Of a stretch of DNA of 20,877 bases, positions 5,680 through 11,216 are shown one piece after another. Origin of the DNA: a virus. Made by a program: the position numbers and the translations under genes. The stretch is taken from IMG/VR virus record IMGVR_UViG_3300009154_000338, positions 1 through 20,877 of that record. One strand, written 5' to 3'. A model generated the notes under the pieces. The model was not told where the DNA came from. It did no database searches and worked only from the letters and a program-made list of their open reading frames with translations. Position 1 is the stretch's first letter. Each line of letters starts with the position of its first letter.

Positions 5680-5887
5680 GAATAACCCAACAACCTTAGC
5701 AGTGACACATTGTGGTGTCACTGCATCGTTTACAACTACAGAAACAGACATTGAAACAATGTTTGTGCTATTCAAAGCAGCATTAATCGCAATGACTTAT
5801 CAGCAAAGCACCATTGATGATGAAATTGTAAGAATGGCAGAATCAATTAATGATGATCAACAACCTTTAACAAATCCCTTTAAATAA
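5669..5887 (+). CDS. Small unknown protein with a perfect hairpin in its 5' coding region
   Basis: A 72-residue acidic protein, not recognised. The N-terminal half is Thr-rich and probably beta-structured (TTLAVTHCGVTASFTTTETD); the second half is helical and acidic. The start overlaps the previous gene by 11 nt. Codons 11-19 contain a perfect 10-bp inverted repeat (5699-5724), an odd feature for such a short gene that may affect its translation. The gene ends 17 nt before the SSB-like protein. Confidence 0.6.
   Translation: MTIENNPTTLAVTHCGVTASFTTTETDIETMFVLFKAALIAMTYQQSTIDDEIVRMAESINDDQQPLTNPFK
5699..5724 (+). repeat. Perfect inverted repeat inside a small gene
   Basis: GCAGTGACAC and GTGTCACTGC are exact reverse complements separated by ATTGTG. 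This 10-bp stem with a 6-nt loop lies near the start of the gene at 5669. No T-run follows, so it is not a terminator. It could be an mRNA hairpin or a dimeric-repressor site. Confidence 0.75.
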
Positions 5888-5904
5888 CAATTAAAACAAA
5901 ACAC

Positions 5905-6372
5905 ATGGATTTAAAATGTAAATTTAAACAACAGAATGATGTTGTAGAACGTGGCACATTTAAGTCACGCAAAGTATGGGTAATCACAGAAGATGATACC
6001 AAATACCCACAAACAATTGAAGTTGAAGTTGCACAGGACAAAATTGATTTATTCAATACCTGCAGACCTGGTCAACCATTGACAGTATCAATAAATCTTC
6101 GTGGTAGAGAATGGACCAACCCACAGGATGAAGTGAAAGTATTTAACACCCTGCAGTGTTGGAAAGTAGTTTATGATGTTCCTGATCAGCAGGAAGAAGA
6201 AGCACAAAAAATGAAAGCATCACCAAAAATGCAATTAATTCATGATGAATTTAATAAGTTAGATGACATGCCATTTTCAAAACCTTCAAAAAAGAAAGGT
6301 AATATTGAACAAAATTTTGAAAATGAATTTATTCAAGAAATCACAAACGATAACAACGACTTACCATTCTAA
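5905..6372 (+). CDS. SSB-like protein, DUF3127-type OB fold
   Basis: A 155-residue probable single-stranded-DNA-binding protein. Residues 1-90 match the DUF3127 pattern of Bacteroidota: basic strand start, GTFKSRKVWVIT, YPQTIEVEV, KIDLF, a PGQPLTVSINLRGREW segment, then a W-containing strand (CWKVV) closing an OB-like barrel. Residues 95-145 are a charged linker. The end, DNNDLPF, copies the acidic tip of bacterial SSB that recruits other repair and replication proteins. It lies between the Sak4-type ATPase and the nuclease and abuts the nuclease with a 1-nt overlap (TAATG). The binding role is inferred from fold and tail, not from a named homologue. Confidence 0.8.
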   Translation: MDLKCKFKQQNDVVERGTFKSRKVWVITEDDTKYPQTIEVEVAQDKIDLFNTCRPGQPLTVSINLRGREWTNPQDEVKVFNTLQCWKVVYDVPDQQEEEAQKMKASPKMQLIHDEFNKLDDMPFSKPSKKKGNIEQNFENEFIQEITNDNNDLPF

Positions 6373-6932: not shown

Positions 6933-8672
6933 ATGCAATCACTAAAGAACCAAATTGAAATAATCAGTTTGATTGAACAATACATCAAACTAAAACGAAC
7001 AGGATCAAATGCAGTTGGATTGTGTCCATTCCATCAAGAAAAAACACCATCATTCAATGTATCAAATGACAAAGGTATTTATAAATGTTTTGGTTGTGGC
7101 AAGACCGGTGATGTTATCCAGTTCATCATGGAACATCAAAGCAAATCTTACTATCAAGCAATTACATTTCTTGCTGATAAATACAACATTGAACTTAATT
7201 TAAAAAAGAAAGTTTATGAACGTCCTATTGAACGATTAACGAAGCTTTCAGAAATATCCATAAAATACTTTGAAACACGTGGCATAAGCAATAACACCCT
7301 ATTAAGATTTAATGTCACAGAATCGCTTGAATACATGCCGAAAGCACAGGCAGAAGTACCTGCAATATGTTTTAATTACTATCGTGATGAAGAACTTATC
7401 AATATTAAATACAGGGCAAAGGACAAAGATTTTAAGCTTGCAAAGAATGCAGAACTAATCTTTTACAACATTGATGCAATCAAAGACACAACAACAGCAA
7501 TAATTGTTGAAGGTGAAATTGATGCACTTACCTTGTACGAATGCGGATATTACAATGTTGTTTCTGTTCCAAATGGTGCAGGTAATAACTTGCAATATCT
7601 TGACAACTGTTATAAGTATTTTGAGAATAAAACAAAGGTTATTATTGCCACAGATAATGATGAACCAGGTAATAATCTTTGTGAAGAACTTGCAAGAAGA
7701 ATCGGCAAAGAAAAGTGTTACAAAGTTTTATACCCTGATGATTGCAAAGACATCAACGATGTACTTGTAAAGCATAGCAAGGCAATTGTTGACAATGTAA
7801 TCAATAAAGCAGAATGTTTTCCTATTGAAGGAATTCATACAATGGATGACATGTATGAAGAAGTTTGTAATTACTACTTGAATGGTTATCCCAAAGGTGC
7901 AGAAACATGTATCACAGGACTTGATGAACTACTTACATTTGCAGGCGGACAGATCACAATGGTTACAGGTGTTCCTGGATCCGGAAAATCCGAATTTCTT
8001 GACTACATCATGACTAAGCTTGCAATGAATCACAGATGGAATTGGGGAGTTTGTTCTTTTGAGAATCAACCATCTGCATTTCATGTCACAAAATTACAAG
8101 AAAAGGTGACAGGCAAAGCATTCCAATTTAGAGATGAACCTGAATATAGATTGAATGAAGATGAATTTAGATACAGCATTGGTGTTATCAACGAGCATTT
8201 CAGTTTCATAAACATTAATAAAGTTGATGTTACTGTTGATGGGATCATTGACAAGGCACGTGAACTGGTCCATCGCAAAGGAATCAAAGGTCTTATCATT
8301 GATCCTTGGAATTACATTGAACACAAAGTTCCACCAAACCAAACTGAAACACAATACATAAGTGAATCATTAACAAAGTTTAAAGCATTTGCACTGCTTT
8401 CAAACATACATATTTTCATTGTAGCACATCCAACTAAGATTGCAAAAAGTAAAGATACAGGTGAATATGAAGTACCAACACTTTACAATATTAGTGGTTC
8501 TGCTCATTTCTTTAATAAGACAGACAACGGTATCTGTATGCATCGTTCATTTAAACCACCATTTCTTGTTACCTGTTATGTGCAAAAAGTAAGATATTCA
8601 TGGTTGGGCAGAGTGGGAAATGCAGCATTTACTTATGACATTAAAAAAAGACAATACTTACCATCAATTTAA
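6933..8672 (+). CDS. Bifunctional DNA primase-helicase (T7 gp4-like)
   Basis: A 579-residue replication enzyme that makes primers and unwinds DNA at the fork. Residues 31-55 form the CHC2 zinc finger (Cys31, His34, Cys52, Cys55 with CPFH and CFGC). The TOPRIM catalytic part has VEGEIDA (192-198, Glu193) and ATDNDEPG (Asp241, Asp243). A DnaB/RecA-type helicase domain follows, with Walker A GVPGSGKS (346-353, Lys352) and Walker B LIIDPW (Asp457). Domain order and length match the T7 gp4/Twinkle family. A 12-nt leader of CTAAACTAAACG precedes the ATG. It follows a terminator without a visible promoter and is directly ahead of the DUF4373 gene. Confidence 0.94.
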   Translation: MQSLKNQIEIISLIEQYIKLKRTGSNAVGLCPFHQEKTPSFNVSNDKGIYKCFGCGKTGDVIQFIMEHQSKSYYQAITFLADKYNIELNLKKKVYERPIERLTKLSEISIKYFETRGISNNTLLRFNVTESLEYMPKAQAEVPAICFNYYRDEELINIKYRAKDKDFKLAKNAELIFYNIDAIKDTTTAIIVEGEIDALTLYECGYYNVVSVPNGAGNNLQYLDNCYKYFENKTKVIIATDNDEPGNNLCEELARRIGKEKCYKVLYPDDCKDINDVLVKHSKAIVDNVINKAECFPIEGIHTMDDMYEEVCNYYLNGYPKGAETCITGLDELLTFAGGQITMVTGVPGSGKSEFLDYIMTKLAMNHRWNWGVCSFENQPSAFHVTKLQEKVTGKAFQFRDEPEYRLNEDEFRYSIGVINEHFSFININKVDVTVDGIIDKARELVHRKGIKGLIIDPWNYIEHKVPPNQTETQYISESLTKFKAFALLSNIHIFIVAHPTKIAKSKDTGEYEVPTLYNISGSAHFFNKTDNGICMHRSFKPPFLVTCYVQKVRYSWLGRVGNAAFTYDIKKRQYLPSI

Positions 8673-8676
8673 TTTT

Positions 8677-9162
8677 ATGACAAAAGACACGTTTTATTTC
8701 ACACATGATTTCAATGCTAGGACCGATGTTAAGATTAAAAAACTTATACAAAAACACGGTCTTTTGGGTTACGGAATTTATTGGGCATTGGTTGAAGATT
8801 TATACAATAATGCGAACGCATTGCCAACGGATTGCGAATGCATTGCGTTCGATATGCGAACGCATTGCGACATAATTAAGAGTGTAATACATGACTTTGA
8901 CCTGTTTATAATAGGTAAGAAAACATTCAAATCTATGAGCATAGAAAAGCGGTTAAATGAAAGAAAAGATAAATCTATAAAAGCAAGTAAATCAGCTAAT
9001 AAGAGGTGGGAAAATGCGAACGCATTGCGACCGCAATGCGAACGCAATGCTATAAAGGAAAGGAAAGGAAAGGAAATAAAAAAGAAAGGGAATAATTTTT
9101 CGCCTTCGGCTGATTTAAAAAAACCACATGGAAATGTAGATACACAACCAATGGTTTTTTAA
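8677..9162 (+). CDS. DUF4373-type replication protein containing iteron-like repeats
   Basis: A 161-residue protein. The start is ATG at 8677, 4 nt after the primase-helicase, rather than the in-frame ATG at 8620 inside that gene. Residues 3-45 (TFYFTHDFNARTDVKIKKLI, then LGYGIYWALVEDLY) match the DUF4373/Lin1244 N-terminal domain, a winged-helix-like unit found in phage and conjugative-element replication proteins. The domain is interrupted around residues 45-65 and followed at 113-125 by similar segments (NANALP, NANALRPQ, CERNA) coded by GC-rich repeats. Residues 126-137 are a Lys/Glu run coded by a purine tract. The C terminus looks disordered. A role as initiator or helicase loader is inferred from family and position beside the primase-helicase. 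Confidence 0.78.
   Translation: MTKDTFYFTHDFNARTDVKIKKLIQKHGLLGYGIYWALVEDLYNNANALPTDCECIAFDMRTHCDIIKSVIHDFDLFIIGKKTFKSMSIEKRLNERKDKSIKASKSANKRWENANALRPQCERNAIKERKGKEIKKKGNNFSPSADLKKPHGNVDTQPMVF
8809..8870 (+). repeat. Iteron-like repeat cluster 1
   Basis: Copies of AATGCGAACGCATTGCG or close variants lie at 8809-8824, 8832-8847 (one base different) and 8854-8869, with a reversed partial copy at 8840-8851. The core AATGCG-AA-CGCATT is an inverted repeat. GC-rich repeats in an AT-rich gene for a replication protein suggest initiator-binding sites. Confidence 0.7.
9013..9050 (+). repeat. Iteron-like repeat cluster 2
   Basis: Two more copies of the same element: 9013-9029 (exact AATGCGAACGCATTGCG) and 9032-9050 (variant ending CGCAATGC). 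They are separated from cluster 1 by about 140 nt and sit directly before the purine tract. Confidence 0.7.
9054..9093 (+). repeat. Purine tract with tandem AAAGG units
   Basis: Four tandem AAAGG units are followed by an A-rich run; all 40 bases except one T (9077) are purines on this strand. It codes for Lys, Glu and Arg residues. Placed just after the iterons, it resembles the purine-rich, easily unwound region of the lambda origin. Confidence 0.7.
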
Positions 9163-10921: not shown

Positions 10922-11216
10922 AAATAGACAATTCTTAGATTTCAATAGGTCGCATCATCACACATTGGTTGTTGCAGGATTCCTTACAAACCTAACAAAT
11001 GAAACAAGACAAACAATGCTTAACATCATACGTGAAGAATTCAGTCCTGGTTATCTTTGTTGCCTGCATTGCAGTGCTGACGTTGCACAAATGATAAAAT
11101 ATGTTTATGGTCAATACGATCAGTTATTGAAACAGGAAGCAGAAGCACCCTCAATTGCACCCTCAATTGCACCATCAAAACCAAAGCGAAATGAAAAACG
11201 AACAAAGAATACTTAA
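10911..11216 (+). CDS. Unknown protein with a repeated APSI tail
   Basis: A 101-residue protein, not recognised. The first 75 residues are helical with a short central CCLHC motif (FSPGYLCCLHCSADVAQMI). The C-terminal tail has three near-identical APSI/APSK units coded by a 12-base tandem repeat, followed by a basic end (KRNEKRTKN). The ATG at 10911 is chosen over an upstream one at 10890 because it reduces overlap with the glycosyltransferase to 11 nt. The 3' end overlaps the terminase-small-subunit candidate by 26 nt. Function is not visible. Confidence 0.6.
   Translation: MKVENRQFLDFNRSHHHTLVVAGFLTNLTNETRQTMLNIIREEFSPGYLCCLHCSADVAQMIKYVYGQYDQLLKQEAEAPSIAPSIAPSKPKRNEKRTKNT
11145..11180 (+). 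repeat. 12-base tandem repeat in a coding tail
   Basis: GCACCCTCAATT occurs twice in tandem (11145-11168) with a third degenerate copy (11169-11180). It codes for APSI, APSI and APSK. Repeat number could vary by slippage without shifting the frame. Confidence 0.8.

Follow-up and report, generated by a model that had tools for sequence, protein, structure and literature searches.

The stretch from 8809 to 9092 of the virus record IMGVR_UViG_3300009154_000338 is very probably a phage replication origin placed inside the gene of its own initiator, a DUF4373 winged-helix protein that would bind the iterons it contains. The record is a single contig of 20,877 bp and was analyzed at its full length (hereafter, the window). 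By comparing sequences, we identified repeats that are conserved at the DNA level and confined to this gene, a family-wide layout of array, spacer, array and tract, and several interchangeable iteron sequences.

Iteron arrays and purine tract in the DUF4373 gene

The protein encoded by the gene that holds the repeats is assigned to Lin1244_N/DUF4373 by Pfam (PF14297, 39.4 bits against a cut-off of 25) and matches PHROG 2562, replication initiation protein (1.2e-13). The gene starts at an ATG that follows the stop codon of the primase-helicase gene by 4 bp (Table 1). This agrees with a preliminary description of this DNA, which had placed the repeats within a replication-type gene right after the primase-helicase. 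Neither Pfam nor PHROG assigns the downstream gene to a family.

Table 1. Coordinates of the candidate origin, its gene and the adjoining primase-helicase gene in the window
Feature	Position	Strand	Basis
Primase-helicase gene (DnaG zinc ribbon, Toprim, DnaB_C)	6933-8672	+	Pfam; PHROG 239 (1.4e-101)
Candidate initiator gene, 161 aa, Lin1244_N/DUF4373 winged-helix protein	8677-9162	+	Pfam, PHROG, AlphaFold
Iteron array 1 (11-bp units, about 5.5 copies), encodes residues 45-65	8809-8870	+	Repeat register; synonymous-codon invariance
Spacer between arrays, encodes most of recognition helix, wing and long helix	8871-9012	+	Core spacing
Iteron array 2 (11-bp units, 3.5 copies), encodes linker after winged-helix domain	9013-9050	+	Repeat register; synonymous-codon invariance
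A/G tandem tract (TATAAAGGAAAGGAAAGGAAAGGAAAT...), proposed unwinding/loading element	9051-9092	+	Synonymous-codon invariance; purine/AT content

The iteron unit is 11 bp long (AATGCGAACGC or ATTGCGAACGC) and carries a TGCG-NN-CGCA dyad. The GC-rich repeats with an inverted-repeat core that had been noticed in two clusters are thus real, although their true unit is shorter than the 17 bp first quoted. In register, array 1 reads AATGCGAACGC (8809), ATTGCCAACGG (8820), ATTGCGAATGC (8831), ATTGCGTTCGA (8842), TATGCGAACGC (8853) and a partial ATTGCGA (8864); array 2 reads AATGCGAACGC (9013), ATTGCGACCGC (9024), AATGCGAACGC (9035) and a partial AATGC (9046). The first core of array 1 (8810) and the first core of array 2 (9014) lie 204 bp apart, a distance shared by most relatives. 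Directly after array 2, positions 9054-9092 form 39 nt of A and G interrupted by one T, with 4.6 copies of AAAGG; the earlier account gave 40 bases, one T and four AAAGG units.

These features stand out from the rest of the window. The iterons are the largest direct-repeat family of its 20.9 kb, the perfect dyad TGCG-AA-CGCA occurs four times in the arrays and nowhere else, and the only pure-purine run of at least 20 nt falls in the tract. For controls we used two kinds of synonymous-codon shuffle and one dinucleotide shuffle, 2000 of each. The repeated 8-mer content was reached by none of the 2000 in any kind, and the lag-11 periodicity by 0, 7 and 0 of them, respectively. A separate tandem repeat lies at 11145-11178, where 2.8 copies of a 12-nt unit (GCACCCTCAATT), in frame and close to where a small ORF ends, encode a repeated APSI.

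The tract has an AT content of 74% (67% for the window) and a predicted duplex stability about 1.3 sd below the window mean; in 28 relatives it averages 85% purine and 75% AT. Because this AT-richness and the drop in predicted stability are moderate, we base the label of unwinding element on conservation and position.

AlphaFold predicts a confident winged helix at residues 20-110, with helix-turn-helix helices at 53-60 and 64-73, a strand at 83-85 and a long helix at 87-114, followed by a low-confidence tail. The codons of array 1 run up to the predicted recognition helix and cover its first residues; those of array 2 and the tract specify the first part of the tail. The two arrays flank the DNA that codes for the wing and for most of the recognition helix. 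The closest structural neighbours among viral proteins are Lin1244_N and DUF1376 proteins, and replisome organizers match more weakly. Against solved structures, the fold search gave weak winged-helix matches, including transcription regulators, none of them at E <= 0.001, and the sequence search gave no match for the window protein. Aligned with hhalign, the DUF4373 and DUF1376 profiles match at 97.7%, a value to which the iteron-encoded residues contribute.

Selection on the DNA and confinement to one gene

Relatives were gathered by protein similarity and not by DNA motif. For 30 non-redundant DUF4373 genes and 61 DUF1376 genes, we asked how often the same codon is used at a shared amino acid, beyond the codon usage of the family. 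In DUF4373, the excess codon identity is about 0 over codons 7-40, reaches 0.91 at codon 49, falls to 0.1-0.3 over codons 64-94, climbs to 0.94 at codon 115 and 1.0 at codon 127, and returns to about 0 by codon 154. Synonymous codons are accordingly near-invariant at the centre of array 1 (0.77-0.91), in array 2 (0.74-0.94) and above all in the tract (0.98-1.0). DUF1376 peaks at codons 55-61 and 109-133, with slight rises in a few other places and a long, flat C-terminal half. Since the peaks of both families coincide with the arrays and the tract, these three elements are held by selection at the DNA level. The preliminary description had proposed that the same DNA repeats should recur at the same position in relatives even where the protein differs; this was strongly borne out in these genes and in IMG/VR.

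We counted 181 exact copies of the 10-mer core in 64.6 kb of DUF4373 and DUF1376 genes and none in 506.6 kb of flanking sequence. Exact cores are read in all three codon phases, which argues for selection on DNA rather than protein, and their spacings within an array are 11, 22 or 44. By these comparisons, the arrays and the tract are under selection on DNA independent of the protein. Chance, or low complexity at the protein level, is scarcely conceivable as the source of the repeats. Array 2 does encode a linker whose sequence is free to drift, but an 11-bp unit read in three frames, near-invariant synonymous codons and a core absent from the flanks do not fit such an origin; the codon profile, together with the core counts, phases and spacings, refutes it.

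In array 1 of DUF1376 genes, the central AA is often TT (TGCGTTCGCA, 34 copies), which turns Thr into Ser and leaves the dyad arms unchanged. Such a swap is expected of a dyad that is read from either strand. Iteron copies within one gene change in concert, at times in both halves of the dyad (TGCG..CGCA to TACG..CGTA). Could the repeats act as hairpins in mRNA or single-stranded DNA instead of as duplex sites for a protein? We regard this as very unlikely. The window arrays fold better than shuffles (z of -2.75 and -3.80), as do those of several relatives, but any array of dyads would be expected to. Folding is no better than that of shuffles in four other relatives (L220, z +0.64; L296, -0.98; L393, -0.84; L418, -1.1), which nevertheless share the 11-bp direct repetition, and a search of Rfam gave no match. 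The RNA-hairpin reading was rejected as not general across iteron classes.

The pattern is present in 13 of 14 whole virus records of up to 70 kb, where the exact or strong sites fall in one short region per locus and weaker matches are scattered. This fits the earlier suggestion that the gene moves together with its origin as a unit. In IMG/VR, among the matches listed, the 16-mer ATGCGAACGCATTGCG lies inside a DUF4373 or DUF1376 ORF in 107 of 120 contigs, and at 122 of 123 sites it is oriented in the coding sense; the reversed 16-mer, used as a control, was found in 13 contigs and never in a family gene. One record, IMGVR_UViG_3300032323_002596, carries the locus twice in opposite orientation (20866-21105 and 38804-39043), probably through a chimeric assembly or an inverted duplication.

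Confinement bears on a further explanation, in which the arrays are an operator through which the DUF4373 protein or a host factor regulates transcription through the DUF4373 gene, the origin lying elsewhere. Plasmid iterons can also serve autoregulation, and the protein is a winged helix whose best matches among solved structures, all weak, include transcription regulators. An operator would, however, sit oddly 130-375 nt inside the coding sequence, away from a promoter. Nor does it account for the coupling of the sites to an invariant tandem A-rich tract, or for strong sites confined to this gene in whole records up to 70 kb. We therefore consider the operator improbable, and an origin remains our preferred reading of the arrays.

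Iteron classes, tract types and two protein families

Three iteron classes are found at this place in the gene. The class TGCGAACGCA is nearly confined to DUF4373 and DUF1376 genes (107 of 120 contigs among the matches listed), TACGAACGTA lies in a family gene in 62 of 71 IMG/VR contigs, and GACCGTTCAAC in 113 of 116. Each class is present in both families. Further iteron sequences occupy the same place in the sampled genomes (TTCAACCACAG, ACGACCGTGCA and CCAACGGCGTT). A fourth candidate class, TGCAAACGCA, was rejected; only 23 of its 63 contigs have it in a family gene, so most of its matches are due to chance. Within the lineage of the window's primase-helicase, the copies change together, to TGCAAACGCA in one relative (L218) and to TACGAACGTA in another (L220).

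Near-identical 11-bp iterons occur in phages of Bacteroidota and Proteobacteria whose proteins share little identity. For instance, exact or near-exact iterons lie in genes of Vibrio phage 1.052.A (host Enterovibrio), Acinetobacter phage phiAC-1 and Paracoccus phage Pkon1. They are also found in contigs of Dysgonamonadaceae, Candidatus Azobacteroides and Paludibacteraceae MAGs and of Rhizobiales and Burkholderiaceae genomes. The preliminary description had looked to Bacteroidota phages; the element does occur there but is not restricted to them.

The layout is not uniform. When sampled family genes were tested for repeat families, only about half of them showed a clear signal; some members therefore have no array that can be recognised. 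Two members of the window's primase-helicase lineage (L215 and L217, DUF4373 gene at 5734-6210) have array 2 and the tract intact but no array 1, which may thus be dispensable. In another contig (L116, 7303-7375), iterons TATGCGAACGCATTGCGAATGCATATGCGAAAGCAATGC precede a (TAAGATAAGGTAAG)-like tract, and the block lies outside any family ORF, possibly an origin of the same kind outside the initiator gene.

Another explanation is that the repeats form a recombination joint, at which N-terminal DNA-binding domains would be swapped onto other C-terminal domains, array 2 marking the domain border. Array 2 does fall in the predicted low-confidence linker, all three classes occur in both protein families, and the C-terminal parts differ among relatives, the window protein being shorter than most of them and lacking that part. 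A joint would leave unexplained, however, why array 1 lies within the DNA-binding domain, why the 11-bp register is strict and the tract invariant, and why all copies in one gene change symmetrically and in concert. We give this explanation very little credence as an alternative to an origin.

The type of tract follows the protein family. Counted by contig, which does not amount to independent events, A/C tracts are found in 66 DUF1376-like and 0 DUF4373-like contigs, and A/G tracts in 102 DUF4373-like and 15 DUF1376-like contigs. For this table, families were assigned with profiles from which the array and tract residues had been left out, a step that moved some TACGAACGTA genes between families. 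On these counts, tract type appears to go with the protein family and iteron class does not. We tentatively propose, at somewhat less than even confidence, that DUF1376 and DUF4373 belong to a single superfamily whose initiator genes each contain an origin in two parts. One part would be an 11-bp iteron of a class that can be swapped, determines the specificity of protein-DNA binding and is common to phages of different phyla; the other would be a tandem A/G or A/C tract whose type goes with the protein family, and probably with the replication machinery of the host. In this reading the tract would signal loading and be read separately from the iterons.

An origin in these genes would give a likely job, as origin-binding initiators, to two Pfam families for which no function has been described and which many phages and prophages encode, and the likely origin of many phage genomes can be located from sequence alone. 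Near-identical iterons, together with natural variants in which both half-sites have changed, are ready material for studying DNA recognition by a winged-helix initiator. With the iteron swappable and the tract specific to the family, one can also test directly what reads the unwinding/loading tract.

Proposed mechanism and comparison with known origins

By analogy with lambda O (PMC7466680) and SPP1 G38P (PMC6316719), we infer that the DUF4373 protein would bind the 11-bp iterons as dimers or arrays. Because one iteron spans about one helical turn, the protomers would be aligned on one face of the DNA, and could bend or wrap it across both arrays. Strain from the complex would open the A-rich tandem tract next to the arrays, a helicase would be loaded on the strand freed in this way, and synthesis would start within 8809-9092. 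Here, the machine loaded is likely the primase-helicase encoded just upstream. In other phages, DnaC-like loaders come after the DUF4373 genes, and the helicase loaded there would be of DnaB type. The pairing with the primase-helicase is not obligate, and we rejected that idea: DUF4373 lies downstream of it in 22 of 70 relatives with room, and at one locus (L210, 5732-7600) a primase-helicase 71% identical is followed by no DUF4373 gene. Cumulative GC skew had been expected to switch near 9050. No switch was seen in the window, and the skew rises steadily in a 33.9-kb relative with terminal repeats; it is uninformative, because nearly every gene lies on one strand.

Origins inside initiator genes are already known. 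We found no earlier description of these DUF4373/DUF1376 in-gene iterons in the open-access literature. The iteron strings are absent from the open-access papers searched, and the open-access papers that name DUF4373 or DUF1376 do not, to judge from their titles, concern origins. As far as this literature shows, what is new is the proposed origin role of both families, iteron classes that span phyla, two arrays flanking the recognition-helix region, and a family-linked tract.

The window resembles lambda O in having the proposed origin inside the candidate initiator gene, with iterons followed by a tract. Lambda iterons are longer than 11 bp, and the window has its 11-bp units in two arrays, one on either side of the recognition-helix region, rather than in one block. 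By Pfam, the window protein is not a lambda O homologue: hmmscan assigned it to Lin1244_N only, and 34 relatives to Lin1244_N or DUF1376 alone, bar one weak DUF6431 match. Nor is there a gene for a P-like helicase loader beside the window initiator, which adjoins a primase-helicase instead. In lambdoid phages the in-gene origin is proven: the ori of lambda and Stx phages, in gene O, has four or six iterons in one block and then an AT-rich tract, and binding by the initiator is established (PMC7466680).

SPP1 offers a second proven case, oriL in gene 38, with direct repeats and an AT-rich unwinding element inside the gene of the replisome organizer (PMC6316719). The window likewise has direct repeats and a tract inside a candidate initiator gene. 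SPP1 differs in having another origin, oriR, and a loader of its own, gp39, whereas no second iteron locus was found here; replisome organizers are among the weaker structural neighbours of the DUF4373 protein.

The Rac prophage of E. coli K-12 provides a comparison within the proposed superfamily. Its ydaU gene (NC_000913, 1421119-1421976) encodes a DUF1376 protein and contains, at the corresponding place, TGTTCAAACA-like repeats followed by AAAGATACAGATAAAGAT; the iteron sequence is other than that of the window. From its sequence, this block is a candidate for the location of oriJ, the origin of the Rac prophage.
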